Shown: one piece after another, positions 1-63,579 of the stretch
How positions within the stretch are numbered: position 1 is the stretch's first letter
How the letters are laid out: every line of letters begins with the position of its first letter
DNA from: Aquanectria penicillioides
Taxonomy: Eukaryota; Ascomycota; Sordariomycetes; Hypocreales; Nectriaceae
NCBI GenBank assembly: GCA_003415625.1
Contig: PYIU01000004.1
Span: forward strand, 4,154,001 to 4,218,000
Length of the DNA stretch: 64,000 nucleotides
Direction of reading: 5' to 3'
Notes under the pieces: model-generated
Database searches by the model: none
Told to the model about the DNA's origin: nothing
The model's input: only the letters and a program-made list of their open reading frames with translations
Translations under genes and position numbers: made by a program

Positions 1-2244
1 GGCGAATACAGCCTGGGAGGACTTCAGGAAGGGCCTTCTATGGAGTCGAGATCTGATCCAGCACAAGCTTGAGCGACTTGATGCCTCGCCCCCCGGAATG
101 ACGGCGCTGTATGACACGATTATGGCCCGAATCGATCCTGAAATAAAGGAAGAAGCAATTGACATATTCTTCCTTCTTTCTGTTGCTGCACGACCAATGA
201 GTGAGATCGAGTTGGGGATTCTCCTCGGAATGTACCGCCATCGAACAGCCATCACCAACTCACTGGATTTTGAACCTTTTCAAAAGTTGGGTGATCTCCT
301 TGAAAAGCAGTTTAACGACGTTATTACGATCCATAATGATGATATCATCACATTTGGGCATTTATCCTTCAAGGAGTATCTTCAGACCACATGGGAGCGC
401 GAAAACCCGGGTGGGTTGGGACGAGCACGAAGAGGGATGACCCGAGCTTGTTTAAGGTACTTGAAATTGCGAGACCTTCTTGCTGACGCATCCACGGCGA
501 TATCCGAAAAGAGTTAGTAGGACGAGGGTGAATTACAATATCGGTCGATCACTAATTTATTTCAGGACTTGAGAGCAATTACTCATTTGTGTCCTACGCG
601 AGGAGCTTTTTCCTGCACCATCTGCTTTCGCTACCATACGACGACTCGTTATGGTTGGTATTTGGGGATCTCGCTGGACCATCTAGTATCTACACAATCG
701 ATTCCTTGAAACCGGAAGGCTTAATAATTCCCACACCTTTGCGAGCGGTCCTCGACGAGGTTCCATTCCCGGAAAAGCAGACATTGGTTCGAGAACTCAA
801 ACATCATGGTTATGACATAAACGAAAGATGGCTTCCGCGACAATACCGGGGGTTTGCTTTGCAGTATTGCCTATCAATGGTAAAATACCAGCCTGAAATG
901 AAGACGATGGCGAACCTGCTGCTGAACCTTGGCGCGGATCCGAGACTACCTGAAGAGCCGATTAGGTCGAACTTTGCGAGTGCAATCCAGGGAGGTTCTT
1001 GGGACCTATATGATTCTCTTCTCAGGCATCCATGGATCGACCTTAACGCGCGGGACTTTTATGGACAGACTGTGGTGCACAGCTTAGTTCTATACGGTCC
1101 ACTAAAGAGACTTGCTGACCTTGTACAAAACAATCGCGTTGATATCAACATACAGGACATTAATGGATTTACACCGCTACATTTGGCCACCTCTATTGGA
1201 AGGATTGAGAAAGTCAAAATACTTTTGCAGGTTCCTGGAGTCCGATTGGATCTGGCGGACAAATCAGGCCGTACAGTCTTCACACTTGCTACCTATTGGG
1301 GCTATCAATCTATAGCACTAGCTTTGATAGAGACATCTCAGGCCTTTCCAATTTCTGATACGAATCAGCTGAGCGGTCTCGTGTTTGCAGCAAAGCAAGG
1401 TCACAAGGAGCTCTGTTTTCGGACTTTGGAACTTCTAAAGTATGAGAAATTGAGCCTTCATATGGACCACACCGGAAAGGGAATACTGCATCATGCCGCA
1501 ATTAATGATTGGAGCGACGTAATAGAGCAATGCATTGTCCGAGGTGGCCGTGGCTTGCTAGTTGACAAACCGGACCACCCAGGAAGGACGGCTTTGCACT
1601 ACGCCGCGACATTGGGCAATACTGAAAGCTGCGCCATGTTACTTCGGCATGGTGCAAGTACAAGGGTGCAAGATAGAATGGGCCGCACGGCACCACAAGC
1701 AGCCGCCGATGCGGGCTTTACCGATACTCTACTAATGATCCTGCGATCTGGAAATGTTGATCCAAATCAACGAGACATTGAAGGACGAAACCTCGTTCAT
1801 TGGGCAGCTACGATTGATAGCACTTCGGTTATGCATCTTCTCGTAGATATGCCGGACGTGGAGCTTTCGAGGAAAGACTACCATGGAAAGATGCCTATCG
1901 ACATCGCATTTCAGTGCAAGTGCGCTAACGTGGGGAGGCTTTTGGAAGCGAAGATGCGACAGAATCCAGATACTAAAGCCTACTATAGTATCTACTACTG
2001 GGATGGGATGTACAATAGTCCAGAGGTCGAGGCATACGACGACGATGTAGCGGGCATCATCAGTCGCGAGCTGGCACAGCTGCAGGACTTGCGTGGAAGA
2101 AAGAGCCATAAAGCCCACAAAGCATGGGAAAGGTTGCAAAAACAGTACCCGCCGATTCATTGGGCCTTGGTAACTCGAGATAATGAGAGCGAGATCGACA
2201 AGGAACTTAAGAAGGAGATGGGATATTATGACTTCGATGGCTAA
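1..2244 (+). CDS. NACHT-ankyrin STAND protein, 5' end outside window
   Basis: Partial gene, open from the window edge (frame starting at base 2), with an intron at 513-565 (gttagt...ttcag, branch cactaat). Joining the exons restores one frame of 729 residues ending at 2244. The first about 170 residues match the region just after a NACHT NTPase (the segment around MTALYDTIMARID and the following winged-helix-like part). From about residue 280 to 640 there are degenerate ankyrin repeats, for example around NGFTPLHLATSIGR, GRTALHYAATLGN and EGRNLVHWAATID. The P-loop itself must lie upstream of the window. In fungi such proteins are NLR-like sensors, in which ankyrin repeats sense a ligand and NACHT oligomerises. 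The N-terminal effector domain cannot be seen, so the output is unknown. Confidence 0.85.
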
Positions 2245-53065: not shown

Positions 53066-56000
53066 ATGGAACCCGGCGAACCTGACGTTTGCGCGTCGCT
53101 TTCGTCGTGCGCGAGGAGAGCTGGCGTCCTGATTGTGAAATTGGCCACTAAAGAGACTGTGGGAGATGGCAAAGCGGGGACGGCTCAGGCGCTTATGGCG
53201 GATCTGGGCACGAGGCTCTTCACCCTATCATCGTTTCTGAAAGATCCAACCGCGCCGATCCTCCCAGACATCGAACAGGATGCAAAGGACGTGATGCTCC
53301 ATCTGTGGAAGGTCTTTATGGTAAGGACTAATTGCTGCGTCCCTGTTGCTTGAGTTGGAGCGAACTCGGCCAGGCTAACCGTGCCCTGTAGTGGACAGCC
53401 TCAGTTGAGCCTGATCCCGATCCTCGCCGAGTTCCAATAGACATCAACACCCGACTTAATGATTGGAACCAAGAGAATAGAGACAACTCTGTTCTGCATT
53501 ATTTTCAGTCGTTTCCTCATGAAGCAGAGAAACTCGGGCATCTTTGCGATATTCTCCGGTCAAAGCTCTCATCAAAGAACTGGCATGCGACTGCCAGTTT
53601 GCCTACAAATGTCAAAGTCCCGGAGCCAAATCGGTATGACGACTCGGTTAACCAAAAGCTATTTACCATTCTCAAAGAGCACACGCATTGCCATCATGAA
53701 GATCACGTATCTTTCGAACTACAAACATCAACCGCATGCCCCGACGCGTGGCTTCCAACAAGGCTACGACTGGGTGGTCCATTCCAAACCTCAAAGTGGG
53801 CAATGTTTGACGTGGTTACGTCTTCCATTACAGAAGGCTTCTGGAACGAGTTCAGGTGGTTCATTTCTACGTAAGATGAGGTTCCTTAGTTAACAGTATG
53901 AAGAATCCGTTGACCGTTTTTTTAGGCAGGGTGAAAGCGAAGAACAGAGTTCAGGAAATATGTTACGTCGAGTCAAGTTCGCGGGGGTTGATGACGAAGA
54001 ACAATATGACCCTCCTACCGACGGGTACTGTGTAAGCCAAGGTGATATCTGTCTTGCTCTGAGCCCCTATGAGACGTCATTTCGTGTCGAAATGCAGCTG
54101 GTACCTGGCATCGGCCTTATTCAGCGGGATGATTTCCTCCCAGTCGAGCCCTTGTATCCGCATCAAGGCGTTAAACTTTCCAGCGTCCTCCAAAGCTATA
54201 ACCCACTCACAGTCAAGGATAAGATTACCCTTGCCCATACTGTCGCTCAGGCCTTCTGGCAACTTTATGCCTCAGATATGATGCAGTCTGCCTGGACGAG
54301 CGAAAACATATGGTTTATGCACGAGCATCCAAAGGACGATTACGGAGATCTGGTAGATGTCCTTCCCAATGAGCTTCCCATGAATGCATATGTTGTTTTC
54401 AACTTTGGCAAAGTTAACGACGCTGTCGAGGAATCCCGGGACTCGCTTCAGTGGGCACGCCCCCGTCCTCTACCTCACCGATTTCCCCATATCCTTGCCC
54501 TTGGAGTGCTTCTGCTTGAAATTGGTCTCGGGAAATCGCTGGGTAAGCCAGACAGCAGGAGCCTATTAGGTCGAGAGCATGTGGTCAGGATTGTGAGCGC
54601 CGCAGCATCTGGTCTGAAAAAGCTGGAAGAGACAAGCTGGGATGGTTTCACGCTTCACAAGATCTTCTTCACTGGAGCGATAAAATACTGCACGAGTTAC
54701 AACGACCGCGCCGGCTCTCTGAAGCCAAACTCACAAGGAGCTAGAATGTCAACGAAGGCAAAAGATCCAGGGCACAAGCCAGAAAGCAAATCGGACATTC
54801 TGAAAAGAAAGGAGTTGCTCTACAAGAATGTTATCAGACCGCTGGCATGGCTTGCTCAAGCTTTCCACGAAGATGACAGCAATGTCACCTGCGCTTACAA
54901 CCTGAGAGCGCCTTACATGCAAAGGCGTGAAGAGACTGATGAGGATGAAGAGGGTTCCAAGTTGACTGTCGCCGAGACGCTTAAAACAAACGAAACTTGG
55001 TTTAAAATGCTAACCAAGTTCAATTTCCGCATTCATCAACAAATGGTAATCAAAGCTAATGGAAATGGGCCCATGAACCCACAACCGATGGTAAAAATCG
55101 CCATCTTAGACACAGGATATAATCCAAACATGGCATTTTTCAAGTCGATGGGGGGTTTTTTGAAAGTCAAGTGGCGCGACTTTGCTAACAAAGCTCCCGC
55201 GGCAAACGGAATAGACGAGGATGGTCATGGAAGTTTAATGTCACAAGTTGTGATGGCAACATCTCCATTAGCAGAGATTCATGTTGTTCGAGTCGCAAGG
55301 AACAGACAGGAGATTTTGAAGAGTCAAGAAAATATTGCAGAGGTATGTGGAATCTTCCTTTCGATACGCCGCATCCCTTCAGGACTAACAAGCCTCCGCA
55401 GGCAATAATCTGGGCAGGTATCAACCAAGAAGTGGATATAATCTCAATGTCATTTGGGTTCGAAGCGAATGATGACAATGTCAAGGTGATGAGCGACGCA
55501 ATCGATAGAGTGGACCGAGAACGAGGGAGGAGAGTGGTGTTCTTGGCGGCAGCAAGCAACAACTCGAGCCATCAAACCAACATGTTCCCAGCGCGTCACC
55601 CATCTGTTTTACCTATACATGCAACCGATAGCAAGGGGATATTTATGTTCAATCCGTCAACGCACGATAGGATCGTCGGCACATACAGCGAAGGTCTTCC
55701 TAATGATGTGAGTTGGATTGTAGTGATTGGAGACTTGGAAATATGATGCTGACTCTATTGTGCAGATTCTCACAGATCTGAACCGAGAATACATGTCAAA
55801 ATTTGACGGCAAGCCCAGCTCATCAGTCGCCACAGCCGTCGCCGCAGGAATTGCTGCCACCACAATTGCGCATATCTCATACCTGAAGTGGTCTAATGGC
55901 GCGAGCAACAAATCGGAAGGGGTCTTCATCATTTCCCCAGGTGAGGTTCTAGAGAGTTTAAAAACGCAGACGGGTATGAGAAAAGTCGTACAGCGGATGG

Positions 56001-56140
56001 CGACTCAAAGCGGTGCGAATGCGTCTCGGCTATTCCTCGACCCAATTGCATTTTGGAGAAGAGCCTCGAGAGACACGTCATCGGATTCACAAATGGATGT
56101 CAATCTTTTGAAGGATATCGACCATTACCTACGATCTTGA
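53066..56140 (+). CDS. DUF7580 - subtilisin (S8) protease, HET-Q2-like
   Basis: Exons 53066-53320, 53392-53870, 53926-55342, 55402-55707 and 55766-56140 (introns 53321-53391, 53871-53925, 55343-55401, 55708-55765) give 943 residues from the first in-frame ATG; the frame is open to 52970, so an upstream exon is possible. N-terminal helical half and DUF7580 core (NAYVVFNFGKVND, HILALGVLLLEIGLGKSLG) at about 1-500, then an S8 peptidase domain: catalytic Asp in VKIAILDTGYNP (about residue 640), His in DEDGHGSLMSQ (about 680) and Ser in GKPSSSVATAVAAG (about 838). No signal peptide is seen, so it is intracellular. Such proteases, unlike secreted subtilisins, act in fungal cell death: Podospora HET-Q2 cleaves the gasdermin-like HET-Q1. 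A gasdermin-like gene lies 2 kb downstream, which supports that role (inference). Confidence 0.85.
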
Positions 56141-58162: not shown

Positions 58163-59014
58163 TTAATTCTCGACTTCACGAAGGAATTCACTGTTCAATC
58201 CTTCCATATCCCTTGTCACTTCGACACACTCAATGTCATCCAACTCACCCTCGTCTGTCATGAAGGCCGAAGAATCTGCAAACATTGTCGCACGCCGACG
58301 GATTACGTGCATGCAGTACGCAAACACAATCTCTTTCCCTTCAATGGTTTCGTACGAGTGGCTGATGTTTTTGTGACTATCGACGTGTCCCGATACCCCT
58401 CCACCAACCGGGAATGAGGCCGCAGCGTTCGTCACTGAGATATCTCCAGGTTCAGATGCGAATGCGCTGGCCGAGGCTTTTCCGTGTACCGTTGAGTCTT
58501 TGACTTGAGTGACAGAAAACGGGCCCTTGGCTAGTCGCAGCCCCGAAACAACATAAATGGGATTGGGAAGAAGCTGACGAAAGAAGTTCGGCTCAACGCA
58601 TTCTTTCACACTGGCCTGTGCAAGGATAGATTTGACTACTGCGGGCGTAAGAGGATATTTAAACTGAACGATCCTGTGATCAGTTTTCCCAATCGTAAGA
58701 CTATGCTCGCGCTTCACCTCCATTTCGGATGAAGCTGAGACAACTTCAAAGAATTTGAGAGATGCATCGCCTCCGACGGAATTGCTGTTATCGGTGCTGG
58801 AGTGCTCGTGGTTCTTCTCTGTGCCTACAGTCTCCTCAGGTGGCCAGTTGATGGGCGGCGTAGCCTCGTCAATCGCGGGGGAGAAGAGAACTGAAGTTGA
58901 GTCATTGAATGATTTGAGAACAGTTCCAAGCTGAAGCCGTCCGCCCTCGGTGTAGGTAAAGTCTGGAGGACATCCGGGCGAGCCAGGGAGAAACCAGATG
59001 CCTTTGTCCGACAT
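58163..59014 (-). CDS. gasdermin-like pore-forming protein (HET-Q1/RCD-1 type), probable
   Basis: Intronless, 283 residues from the ATG at 59014. The order of features fits the N-terminal pore-forming domain of fungal gasdermins: a short start with TEGGRLQLGTVL, a variable acidic loop, a beta/helix region, the core strand NPIYVVSGLRLAKGPFSV (the LYVVTE-like strand of animal gasdermins), a glycine-rich insertion with alternating small residues (AAASFPVGGGVSGHVD), then KEIVFAYCMHVIRR matching the conserved hydrophobic strand. A short acidic tail follows (about 35 residues), as in HET-Q1, where cleavage of the tail activates the protein. Assignment rests on pattern and on the linked S8 protease gene; there is no single diagnostic residue. 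It acts by membrane permeabilisation leading to cell death if correct. Divergent from the NLR-like gene at 59319. Confidence 0.6.
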   Translation of the reverse strand: MSDKGIWFLPGSPGCPPDFTYTEGGRLQLGTVLKSFNDSTSVLFSPAIDEATPPINWPPEETVGTEKNHEHSSTDNSNSVGGDASLKFFEVVSASSEMEVKREHSLTIGKTDHRIVQFKYPLTPAVVKSILAQASVKECVEPNFFRQLLPNPIYVVSGLRLAKGPFSVTQVKDSTVHGKASASAFASEPGDISVTNAAASFPVGGGVSGHVDSHKNISHSYETIEGKEIVFAYCMHVIRRRATMFADSSAFMTDEGELDDIECVEVTRDMEGLNSEFLREVEN

Positions 59015-59318
59015 CGTAAATAACTGTCGATTTGGAGTTACAATGCGATGCACCTAACTGGGAATGAGAAGAAATCCCACTTGCAGTCGAGCGGGGTAAG
59101 TGATGAAATAACCAGGTTCAGGCAACAAACCGCTCAGCCTCACCTTGCCAACTGCATGCATGAGCTAGTGTTGGGGGCGCTGAGAGCCCTGCTCAGGTTG
59201 TTGCGTCTTTTGAGGCTGGCGTTATTTGACAAGTCACACGCAAGTCTCTGGTCTGAGCCTCATCCAGGATATCCTGCTCCCGACTCCTGCTCGCCCATGT
59301 CCCTCCGAGGGTGGAAGC
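59015..59318. promoter_or_regulatory. shared promoter of gasdermin-like and NB-ARC genes
   Basis: Only 304 bp separate two divergent start codons, so the two genes probably share regulatory DNA. No specific site is recognised. Confidence 0.4.
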
Positions 59319-62300
59319 ATGGAGGAGTCTACGGTCGCTGAGCTGACGGGAGAATGCTTGGATTTATTGCGGCAATGTCGGGAGACTGTAAAAGCCGAAT
59401 CGCTCCGCGTGGGGCTCGACAATCGCCTCGCCGATTTCAGGCTTTGGTCAGATGGTGTGGGAGCGATGGCGAGACAGAGAACTTCCCTGGACTGGAGATT
59501 CAGATCGCGGCCTGATGATCTGGATATGATAAAGGGAATACTAAGCCTTCTCTGCCAGTTCCTTCGAAACTACGTACATGTTGCCGAAAACGAGAAGCCC
59601 GTCGACGAGGCTCTGCGCAATGTTGACTCGGCGCTCGAAAACCTCGCTCTGCTCGCTATGGCGATTCGCCAGACGGGAACGAGATCCCGGTTAGAGAAGG
59701 CTGATGGAAAATACAACCCCGATGACCACAAAGGCCTGAGAGATCATATTGAATGCATAATCCGCATTCGACGCGATCCCGCTGGTCACACATCAAGCTG
59801 TTTAGATCGTCGACAACATCGCCTAGTCGAAGGCAATTTGCGGAGGCGAAACCGATTCATTCAGGCGCAGAAACACTCAAGGAGGTTGAGAGCAGTTGAA
59901 AAGAAGAAAGCCGACGCCATTATTGAACAATTTCAAGCCGGATCGCCAGCAGTAGAGAACCCTCCAGAATTACAGCCAGCACCAGGAAAGTCGCCACAGC
60001 CGTCTCAAGCGAGGACCCCCGATCCTTCGATTGTGAAGCCTGCCGTGGTTCCGATGCGAAAGAATCTCACGGCACCGACCGCATCAGGAAACTCGGCCTC
60101 AGTTCCTGATAGCAGCATGAAATTCGCCTTTAGAGAACCTGGCCGGCGGGCGACAGCCTTAGAAGGACCGAAAACAGTGATTACGAAAATCACCGCGTCT
60201 GCCAGTTACCCATATGTCAAAGTACCGAGTGGCCATAATTCCTTCCAGTGTCCTTGTTGTTGTCAGACCTTGCCACGAGACTACGCCGTTGATAATACTT
60301 TATGGAGGTAAGGAGTCGTACTTCATCAGAATTTTGCTGTGGATCTGACAATATGGTTGCAGGAAGCATCTGGCTAAAGACATAAGTCCTTACACTTGCA
60401 TTGCCGACCATTGCCCAACTCCGCACGCCTATTATAACACCGAGGCAGACCTTGAACATCATCTGAGGCACGATCACCCTCCCACTTGGCAGTGTCCACT
60501 ATGTGAGGAGTACCCCCCTACCTTTAGGACTGAAGAAGGCATTGAAGGGCACTTGGAAGACGAGCACGATACAGTGGAGCCAGACGAATGGCCTGGACTG
60601 CTCGAATTATCTTTACAGTATGGCCTGGGCATCGACTGCTGCCCTTTGTGCGGTGAAACCGATACAGTTGACTCCCCGGAGCTAATTTCCCATGTCCTGG
60701 AACACATGCATCAATTTTCATTACTTAGTCTGCCTTGGTCCAAGGACAATGTGGATGTTACTAGAGCGGATGCTCTCTCGTTCAACCCTACTCATCCAAG
60801 ATTACTCTGGAGCCCAGAACCTAGAGGCGACCTAAACCTACCTATCCCATTCGAATCGGTGAGCATCAAAGAACGGCTCGATGCATGGCTGAGCTCGGAT
60901 TCAGTAGAGCTTCCTCATGACATTGAAGACTCTGAGAGGAGTCGACGGAGTATTGACAAAGACTATATCGATGATGATTGTGACTTCTTTGCTGATCAGA
61001 TTTACTTTGCGGATCAGAGCAGCAAGGGCTCGGTGCGAGTCGGAACGATTTCAGAGAGAAGCGAAATGAGTGTTCAAGGTGCGTCATCATTGTTCTGAAC
61101 GAGGAGCACTGTAATGCCCGTTTGTCACCAAAATGGGACTCATATAATGGCTCTGGGACTCTCAACAAGTAATTTTGCTAACCATTGACACTTATTTTCG
61201 CCGCAACAGACGCCGTCGGCCCCCAATTCCATGTTCCTCACGCTAGGAACCCCGAATGGATTCTTCAACACGAACCCTTTGAGGTCATAAAAACTCTTGT
61301 TCGTGATGCGCAGCAACCCCAAACCGGCCACTCACGACTAACGCTGTTGGGGGTCAGCGGCGTCGGGTATGTTACATTAAAGGTGTCACTCAAGTCCTAC
61401 ACTCACGGTTAAACTAGAAAAACTCAAATCGCGATCGAATTTACCTACTGGGTGAAAGAGCATTATCCCAACTGGTTTGTCTTCTGGGTCGATGCTAGTG
61501 GTAGGGAGAGGTTCTTTGAGGCCATTTCTACAATCGGCCGAAGCTGCGATATTCCTGGGTTCAATGAACCGGGATCGATTTCTCAAATCGATCCGCTTGT
61601 GCATCAATCTGAGAATACTAATCGCCCGTTGGATTTGTTGCAGCTTGTGAAAGACTGGCTTGAACATGACAGTCCCAAACCTTGGTTGCTTGTGCTAGAT
61701 GGCCTCGAAGAAAATTTTGATCTATTTTCTCCCGTTGGTAATCCCAGGATCTCAGGATATATTCCCTCTGGGCTAGGGTCCGTATTAATAACCACGAGAT
61801 CCAATCACGTCGCCAACTCATTCAATGGATCTATGGGAGGACGATCTGTTGAAATCCGCGAGATGGCAACCAGGACTGCCAGCGAACTTGTCCTTCAAAG
61901 ACCTATTTTCGTCAACGAGAGACAGAATAGCATTGTCCAACTCATCTCGAACTTTGGCAATTTGCCTCTTGGATTAGCTCAGGCTGCATCCTTCAACCAG
62001 AAGTTTTCCACCAGCATTGCCCACTACTCGAACCTCATCAGCGGGGAAGATGTCACTTGCTCGACGCTTGGTCTCCCTGATACCAACAAAGTACATGATA
62101 CAGTCGTCAAGGCGTTATTTGTATGCCTGAAACAATTAGCCATGAGAGAAAGATTCGTGTATGACTTCCTTATCTGCATAGCGTACTTTGACTGTCACGG
62201 TATTCCAAGGGAGGTTATCCTCAACTACGCCGCAATATATTATGAAGACCAGAACGACAATGATCCTAGACGGTTTTCGCCCGAGGCCCTAGTTGAATAC

Positions 62301-63579
62301 ACCATCAGGACCCTACTTGAGCTCTCATTGGTAACACAGGGGGCCTCTGGTGGTATATTCATGCACTCGTTGACACAGTCGATTATTCGAAAATGGGCCG
62401 ATCAGCGACAAGAAGGTTTAAACAACTATATCGAAATGGCTTCAAGGACAGCTTTACTCAGCTTTCCTCAACCCCAAGACAATAACATGAGACTATGTGC
62501 GCAACGATTGCCTCATGCCCTTTCCGTGGCCTTCTATGGATTGAGAATGGACATAAACAAACGAGAGTTCTACATCAGACCACTTCAGTCACGAATCTCC
62601 AAATACATTCACTCGCGGGGTGTTCTAGAGGGATCGGATTTGATCTTGGATCAATATTCAAATAATCCTAAAGATGATCACTTCATGGGCGGTCCCTCAC
62701 CTGAATCCGCTGATGAAGGTGCAATGGGTGGCCCTGAAAACCGAGGCTTTGGATCCGATGAAGCCTCGGATTGGCGGGACGAAGAGAATGAGCTGCATCC
62801 ATATTCTTCTGTTGAAGCCATCTCTGAGCTATCAGACAGGTTGAGGCGCCAGGAAGACACAAATCCTCGCACTAAACACACCATTTTCCGCGGTGGCTCG
62901 CCCATTCCCCGGCCACGGAATCCTCCACCGCCTGATCCCAGAGTCGATTCTTCTCTGCTGCCTCTCTTTCGCAATGTAGATAAAAATGGTGAGTGGAACT
63001 TTCCCTAGAGAAGTATTTTTGCTTCGCGATACGTCTATCTCTACTAGTTAAGCAGGATCTACATCCTGTGAGAGGTGATGGCCCCTGCTAACGCTTCTCC
63101 TTCCAGAAACCGGGCACCTCACTTCCAAGGAACTTACCTCGGCCTTGGTGAACGGCGATTGGTCGCAATTCGACCCGGTCACTGTGCGCATGTTAATCCG
63201 CATGTTCGACACTGACCGAAGTGGGACTATCGACTTTGAAGAGTTTTGCAAACTCTGGGAGTTCCTAGCTTCCTGGCGAGCGCTCTTCGACAGATTTGAC
63301 GCAGACCGTAGCGGCAATATTTCGCTCTCTGAGTTTAGCGAAGCTATCACGGCCTTCCAATACCGTCTCAGTCCGCAATTTTTAGCACTGCTGTTCCAAA
63401 CATTTGACAAGCGCAACGAAGGCGCGCTAAACTTTGACCTTTTTGTCCAGGCCTGTATTTCCCTCAAGCGTCTAACTGAGGCTTTCAAAAAGCATGATGA
63501 TGACCGAAATGGGTACATAACCATCAGGTTCGAGGACTTTCTTATTGAGATCCTCAATGCCGTCAAAACACTATTATAA
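59319..63579 (+). CDS. zinc finger - NB-ARC - penta-EF-hand fusion protein
   Basis: Five exons (59319-60307, 60363-61078, 61210-61366, 61418-62988, 63107-63579) give 1301 residues in one frame. Residues 1-130: helical module found in fungal zinc-finger/NLR proteins (SLDWRFRSRPDDL). About 310-410: C2H2-type fingers (FQCPCCC, YTCIADHCPTPH, WQCPLCEEYPP, HLEDEH). About 617 onward: NB-ARC with P-loop GVSGVGKTQ spanning intron 3, Walker B PWLLVLDGLEE, GSVLITTRS and GNLPLGLAQA. No TPR, ankyrin or WD repeats follow. Instead, after a Pro-rich linker (RPRNPPPPDPRVDSS), a full penta-EF-hand domain of ALG-2/Pef1 type begins (about 1130-1301), with EF loops starting DKNETG, DTDRSGTIDFEE, DADRSGNISLSE, and DDDRNGY. 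Intron 4 splits EF loop 1. A calcium-responsive NLR is implied. Alternative: a separate PEF gene with its own internal promoter. Confidence 0.85.

Follow-up and report, generated by a model that had tools for sequence, protein, structure and literature searches.

Can an NLR-like switch and a calcium sensor be parts of one fungal protein, or do two neighbouring genes lie end to end? The question is raised by a locus in Aquanectria penicillioides (assembly GCA_003415625.1, contig PYIU01000004.1, positions 4,154,001 to 4,218,000; this whole stretch of 64,000 nucleotides is called the window below), where a sequence-only reading had proposed an NB-ARC protein fused to a complete penta-EF-hand (PEF) calcium sensor. 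In our gene model, five predicted exons on the plus strand splice into a single 1301-residue frame, and the NLR-like switch and the PEF very probably belong to one gene. The splice sites were chosen by reading frame among candidate sites, and the start is predicted. All four introns are of the GT-AG type and 51-131 bases long, with branch-type motifs in three of them and none seen in intron 3. The P-loop is split by an intron (GVSGVG/KT), and the joined frame of exons 3 and 4 reads GVSGVGKT. The gene had been placed at 61418-63579; instead, the model begins at 59319 and the NB-ARC domain in exon 3. The proposal that the exon 61418-62988 stays open through the linker into EF-hand 1 was borne out: the frame is open from 61419 through 62988, the last base before the donor at 62989, and carries on without a shift into 63107-63579. 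Since no C-terminal TPR, ankyrin or WD40 repeats were matched (Pfam, E up to 1), the protein is termed NLR-like rather than a canonical NLR, and a complete PEF appears to stand in place of TPR/WD40 repeats, as first suggested.

The NB-ARC part and the PEF are joined inside exon 4, upstream of the intron in EF loop 1. This intron does lie in the first calcium loop, where it had been described, but its use as proof of the fusion had to be given up: the last intron of the genome's own PEF1 gene breaks EF loop 1 at the identical codon and phase, so the intron is inherited and uninformative about the join. The join falls in a predicted disordered linker, with a predicted local distance difference test score (pLDDT) below 50 at model residues 414-523. 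The longest alignments with NLR relatives stop at residues 1033 (P0007), 1057 (P0011) and 1093 (P0013), and the other eight at 827-991. From 62640 to 62988 the gene's frame contains no stop, as against 3, 14, 3, 4 and 2 stops in the other five frames, which is supportive of the join and not decisive alone.

The C-terminus was confirmed as a complete PEF. A 162-residue alignment to ALG-2/PDCD6, the nearest among solved structures in a PDB sequence search, covers query residues 5-166 of 173 (E 6.4e-43), and Pfam EF-hand_7 was matched at E 2.1e-23. Of its five EF-hands, four have calcium-type loops by pattern (residues 1142, 1179, 1209 and 1275), whereas the fourth in the row does not fit the calcium-loop pattern in the ALG-2 alignment. 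It is not the only PEF gene: the genome search returned one other match, a separate canonical PEF1 at C6:3864177, which is 75% identical to the fused PEF (124/166 residues). This PEF1 has four inferred exons, begins MAYNRP and is 97.5% identical to Fusarium PEF1, which, like the tree described below, points to a probable member of the Nectriaceae. The fused PEF starts with SLLPLFRNVDKN (62946-62988), compared with SLLPLFRAVDRD in canonical PEF1, and is without either of the first two exons of PEF1. The full-length ALG-2 alignment, the EF-loop pattern and the shared intron place it with the PEF1/ALG-2 (PDCD6) group, from which it differs in lacking its own start exons, in its position behind an NB-ARC domain and in its ~25% divergence from the genome's own PEF1.

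By a Nei-Gojobori script, the proportion of synonymous differences (pS) between the fused PEF and PEF1 is 0.79, which is saturated, the proportion of nonsynonymous differences (pN) is 0.156, and third positions are 43% identical (162 codons). Because synonymous sites are saturated while pN is low, the comparison means that the reading frame has been guarded over a long period, part of the constraint being that of the PEF1 lineage. At calcium-ligand positions, 20/24 residues are the same as in the own PEF1, and the four changes (D-N, S-T, G-D and D-N) are all mild. EF5 carries, among other changes, Y1274H and D1279N at positions that are otherwise conserved. The fused PEF has the look of a calcium sensor that still functions but has been put to a new use. 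Among ALG-2 ligand motifs (taken from an abstract and from general knowledge), the fusion protein contains only a bare PGF, at residue 667.

The PEF homologue search listed 120 of 879 matches. Its best-scoring entry (P0019, Cordyceps javanica, 438 residues) repeats its later EF-hands internally and has more than five EF-hands; it was rejected as a relative of the fusion. P0001 and P0002 carry a PEF joined to other domains, which we take to be RdRP and SRF-TF. P0001 starts like canonical PEF1 and P0002 has a Pro/Gln-rich N-terminus; both therefore look like merged neighbouring gene models and were rejected as instances of a genuine PEF fusion.

The NB-ARC assignment also stands, on grounds other than the Pfam score. 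A single-sequence search gave 12.8 bits, below the gathering cut-off of 23.5, which is a score limit and not a structural feature; what supports the domain call is the alignment to NB-ARC-TPR relatives together with the fold match of the predicted structure. Hallmarks of NB-ARC/STAND proteins are a P-loop Lys, a Walker B Asp, a sensor-1 TTR, an LPL motif and a conserved His in the winged helix. In a 12-row alignment, K622, D715, T746, R748, P804 and L805 are invariant and H937 is nearly so (K1, D94, T125, R127, P183, L184 and H316 in exon-4 numbering). Fungal NB-ARC-TPR NLR-like proteins (P0011 from Aspergillus brasiliensis, P0003 from Rutstroemia, and L044, L046-L049 and L036 in the own genome) share the P-loop, Walker B, TTR, LPL, conserved His, winged-helix region and LPHALSV helical segment with the fusion protein at 20-29% identity. 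Whereas these proteins run on into TPRs, the fusion protein has a disordered linker and a PEF instead. TPRs were found at or beside the match in 7/8 own-genome loci examined (of 15 other NB-ARC matches). In the model, the switch region has an Apaf-1-like fold order (structure comparison by VIA-align), and the switch regions of Apaf-1 and plant NRC1 and NRC2 are among the closest known systems. Apaf-1 flanks its switch with CARD and WD40 and plant NLRs use CC and LRR, whereas the fusion protein is predicted to use a C2H2 module and a PEF.

Known N-terminal effector domains of fungal NLRs include HET, HeLo, Goodbye, PNP and patatin. No known effector domain was matched in Pfam by the exon 1 and 2 frames (E up to 0.1) or by the N-terminal region of the full-length protein (E up to 1), and residues 1-480 are without a named Pfam family. 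The N-terminal region is 42-43% identical to P0008 and P0009 and 35-40% to L034. Database proteins headed by this helical/C2H2 module end in PI-PLC (P0008, Fusarium) or a kinase (P0010, Annulohypoxylon), or continue into a NACHT-type NTPase (Pfam NPHP3_N) with ankyrin repeats (P0009, Orbilia). The own genome holds 13 further module matches at nine loci, five of which were read (Table 1), their domains being taken from open frames, not finished gene models. The RasGEF match of L034 crosses three stops, presumably introns, and at L040 and L043 the C2H2 exon alone aligned to the fusion module. Finger Cys/His and a closing LP pair are invariant in a nine-row module alignment. Other loci of the attached families number four for RasGEF, one for WH_RGF3 and at least four for annexin; since the annexin search missed L042, these counts are lower bounds. 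No NB-ARC was found in the scanned frames of the five other module loci, which therefore do not look like NLRs. Taken together, a single module carries, in different genes, copies of a number of conserved signalling proteins. PEF and annexin proteins are both calcium-dependent membrane repair proteins in mammals (PMC7618577). The literature matches listed for C2H2 proteins with annexin or RasGEF contained nothing relevant.

Table 1 Features of the predicted fusion gene, its neighbours in the window and module loci elsewhere in the genome.
Feature	Position	Strand	Description
Exon 1	59319-60307	+	Residues 1-330, predicted helical N-terminus and start of C2H2 module; ATG, open frame, donor 60308
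Exon 2	60363-61078	+	C2H2 fingers to ~60738, then low-similarity segment; acceptor end 60362, donor 61079
Exon 3	61210-61366	+	NB-ARC start with most of P-loop; acceptor end 61209, donor 61367
Exon 4, first part	61418-62657	+	Residues 622-1034: remaining NB-ARC, winged helix, helical domain
Exon 4, second part	62658-62945	+	Residues 1035-1130: predicted disordered, partly Pro-rich linker containing the join
Exon 4, end	62946-62988	+	PEF domain start, first part of EF loop 1
Intron in EF loop 1	62989-63106	+	Ancestral to PEF1; same codon and phase as canonical PEF1 intron (L010)
Exon 5	63107-63579	+	Rest of PEF (end of EF1 loop, EF2-EF5) and stop; ALG-2 match, E 6.4e-43
Gasdermin candidate	58166-59014	-	283 residues, divergent, ~0.3 kb from fusion ATG
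DUF7580 and subtilase (S8) gene pieces	53894-56140	+	Tail-to-tail with gasdermin candidate, ~2 kb apart
L034	C12:3237670		Module with RasGEF_N and RasGEF
L041	C2:2072825		Module with protein kinase
L042	C10:3523380		Module with annexin (second repeat below cut-off)
L043	C1:8075936		Module with WH_RGF3, RhoGEF and CNH, sub-threshold PH; RGF3-type
L040			Module, no recognised attached domain

Upstream of the fusion gene, the sequence-only reading had placed a gasdermin. This neighbour is kept here as a gasdermin candidate: no match to Pfam (E up to 1) or to PDB sequences was obtained, and its AlphaFold model from a two-row alignment was unusable (pLDDT 28.5). Its single other genome match, on C2, is 35% identical. 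What does fit is the surroundings. Both the candidate and its C2 match lie tail-to-tail with an S8 protease gene (2/2; ~2 kb here and 0.2 kb on C2), and their protease genes encode relatives of each other (39% over 118 columns). In the window, DUF7580 was detected in 53894-55408 (E 9.5e-11) and Peptidase_S8 in 55189-55746 (E 9.6e-8), with Peptidase_S8 below cut-off in 53894-55408 (0.026) and 55727-56140 (0.078). This pairing fits the published arrangement of fungal gasdermin and S8 two-gene clusters (het-Q1/het-Q2); ~63% of fungal gasdermin genes are reported as clustered with S8 protease genes (PMC10197012). However, the published sensors described in PMC12881547 carry the protease themselves, whereas Pfam detected no protease domain in the fusion protein.

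Next to the C2 pair (L035) lie a frame with ankyrin repeats and an N-terminus of PigL_N/SesA-like type. An upstream region of ~0.3 kb (59015-59318) is common to the gasdermin candidate and the fusion gene, which may suggest joint regulation. A thioesterase-like gene lies downstream of the window end, and at the other end a 562-residue open frame (556-2244, plus strand) encodes ankyrin repeats (Ank_2, E 2.1e-32).

Is the architecture new? The combination of NB-ARC with PEF was sought in a protein database (8000 best candidates sharing most words scored, lengths about 716-2276 residues), and no fungal NB-ARC protein with a full PEF appeared among its 7 matches or in the open-access literature searched; the term EF-hand does not occur in the main text of PMC9815663, a survey of fungal NLRs, and the paper listed for NOD-like receptors with an EF-hand concerns a mollusc. 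Within these searches, the earlier remark that the architecture is not known to be described holds for fungi but not more broadly. Some plant NLRs are recorded with integrated domains of the EF-hand type (PMC4759884, PMC10934728 and PMC11734081), namely EF_hand_5 in M. domestica, P. trichocarpa and T. urartu and EF-hand_7 in two soybean genes (PMC4759884, PMC10934728); in one plant NLR table, names and descriptions are out of step. Like the fusion, these proteins combine an EF-hand with an NB-ARC receptor, whereas their listed entries are EF-hand pairs, name no PEF and are not fungal. Since plant lists contain EF-hand domains, an NLR with an EF-hand is not wholly new, and the fungal NB-ARC protein with its full PEF is a variant of it.

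What might such a protein do? Sequence and model together describe a predicted one-frame gene with an Apaf-1-like switch, a PEF that keeps most calcium ligands and a probably disordered tether. In N. crassa and other fungi, PEF1 goes to disrupted membrane in a manner dependent on external calcium and supports membrane integrity (PMC13232526, citing Schumann 2019), and in mammals ALG-2 recruits ALIX and ESCRT-III, the latter dampening gasdermin activity (PMC7618577). As PEF1 and ALG-2 act at calcium-entry sites, an NLR-like switch carrying a PEF would be brought to, or released at, such sites. In this reading, the 3' part of the PEF1 (ALG-2) gene, copied at the DNA level, may have come to occupy the C-terminal sensor slot of an NLR-like STAND receptor. 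The switch would be inactive at rest, with ADP bound. Upon a breach of the plasma membrane by an external pore-former, failed cell fusion or possibly the candidate gasdermin next door, calcium would bind the PEF, which would then bind damaged membrane and/or PEF1 and ESCRT partners. This recruitment would concentrate or release the NB-ARC domain, which would oligomerise, and the N-terminal helical/C2H2 module would relay the signal towards a death or a membrane-sealing response. We hold this calcium-recruited switch as a tentative reading, plausible but somewhat short of an even chance, every functional step of which we infer.

Several observations weigh against it. The database search found no second genome with the fusion, and the gasdermin link is an unproven candidate. 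Conservation and substitutions were counted over 118 of the 119 rows P0020-P0138 together with the own PEF1 (P0132, without a start anchor, was dropped and P0019 excluded). Of 108 columns at least 99% conserved in these 119 ordinary PEF1 rows, 13 are altered in the fused copy, mostly conservatively, whereas ordinary rows deviate at 0-2; some PEF1 functions may therefore be lost. The calcium ligands have not been conserved significantly more often than other positions (4/24 changed versus 35/138 elsewhere, p 0.45). In a tree of 42 of the 118 rows with the fused copy, own PEF1, P0001 and P0002, the fused PEF falls within a 13-row group with own PEF1 and the PEF1s of Fusarium, Neonectria, Ilyonectria and Mariannaea (support 92/90), a placement made unsure by its long branch (1.12 versus a median end branch of 0.034).

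Such rapid change could also mark an integrated decoy or guard, in which the PEF copy mimics PEF1, its capture by an attacker or non-self partner allele directed against PEF1 sets off the switch, and calcium binding is incidental. This minority possibility agrees with the retention of the unfused canonical PEF1, with the much faster evolution of the copy and with the presence of the C2H2 module on RasGEF, RhoGEF-CNH, kinase and annexin domains, the genome holding one or more other loci of the RasGEF, WH_RGF3 and annexin families; guard logic has moreover been proposed for fungal NLRs (PMC10197012). However, a decoy would not need the calcium ligands, most of which are kept, relaxed constraint would also account for fast evolution, and the five other module loci do not resemble NLRs. 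Alternatively, the PEF may be an address tag or passenger that merely localises or dimerises the protein (for example with PEF1 via EF5) without gating it, the signal being sensed by the N-terminal module. In the GEF, kinase and annexin genes the module is found with neither a PEF nor an NB-ARC detected, so it may have its own sensing or signalling role, and attachment by a long, predicted disordered linker would suit a tag; the PEF nevertheless occupies the usual NLR sensor slot, and Y1274H and D1279N in EF5 may weaken pairing, making this option doubtful.

The remaining alternatives concern the gene itself. In the first there are two neighbouring transcripts: an NB-ARC gene would end before ~62980, and a new, short PEF gene would begin within exon 4, where the linker offers two Met codons (62685 and 62724). 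Yet no in-frame stop precedes 63008, the start exons of PEF1 are absent, and about 40-100 codons separate the ends of the longest NLR alignments from the PEF, leaving little space for a terminator and a promoter; we regard this arrangement as improbable. An assembly error or recent gene debris would account for a fusion seen, in the searches made, in this genome alone. The frame that is open across five exons, the saturation of synonymous sites while the protein has changed to a limited extent, and an assembly of 13 contigs speak against it and make it highly improbable.

Extended to the whole module family, the calcium-recruited switch leads to a broader proposal that we consider speculative and unlikely as it stands: the helical/C2H2 module would be a fungal receptor chassis that repeatedly captures copies of central proteins of calcium/membrane repair and of Ras/Rho/phosphoinositide signalling (PEF, annexin, RasGEF, RhoGEF, kinase, PI-PLC), and here an Apaf-1-like switch would read the calcium let in by membrane pores, perhaps formed by the gasdermin candidate, so that a signal for repair becomes a decision to die. 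Little is known about what fungal NLRs sense, and a PEF in the sensor slot would offer a concrete ligand, namely calcium together with damaged membrane or PEF1 partners. If true, NLRs, gasdermin-type pores and ESCRT repair would be linked in one locus. Furthermore, a C2H2 family whose signalling domains can be exchanged would carry the concept of integrated domains over from plants to fungi and point to pathways that are worth guarding.

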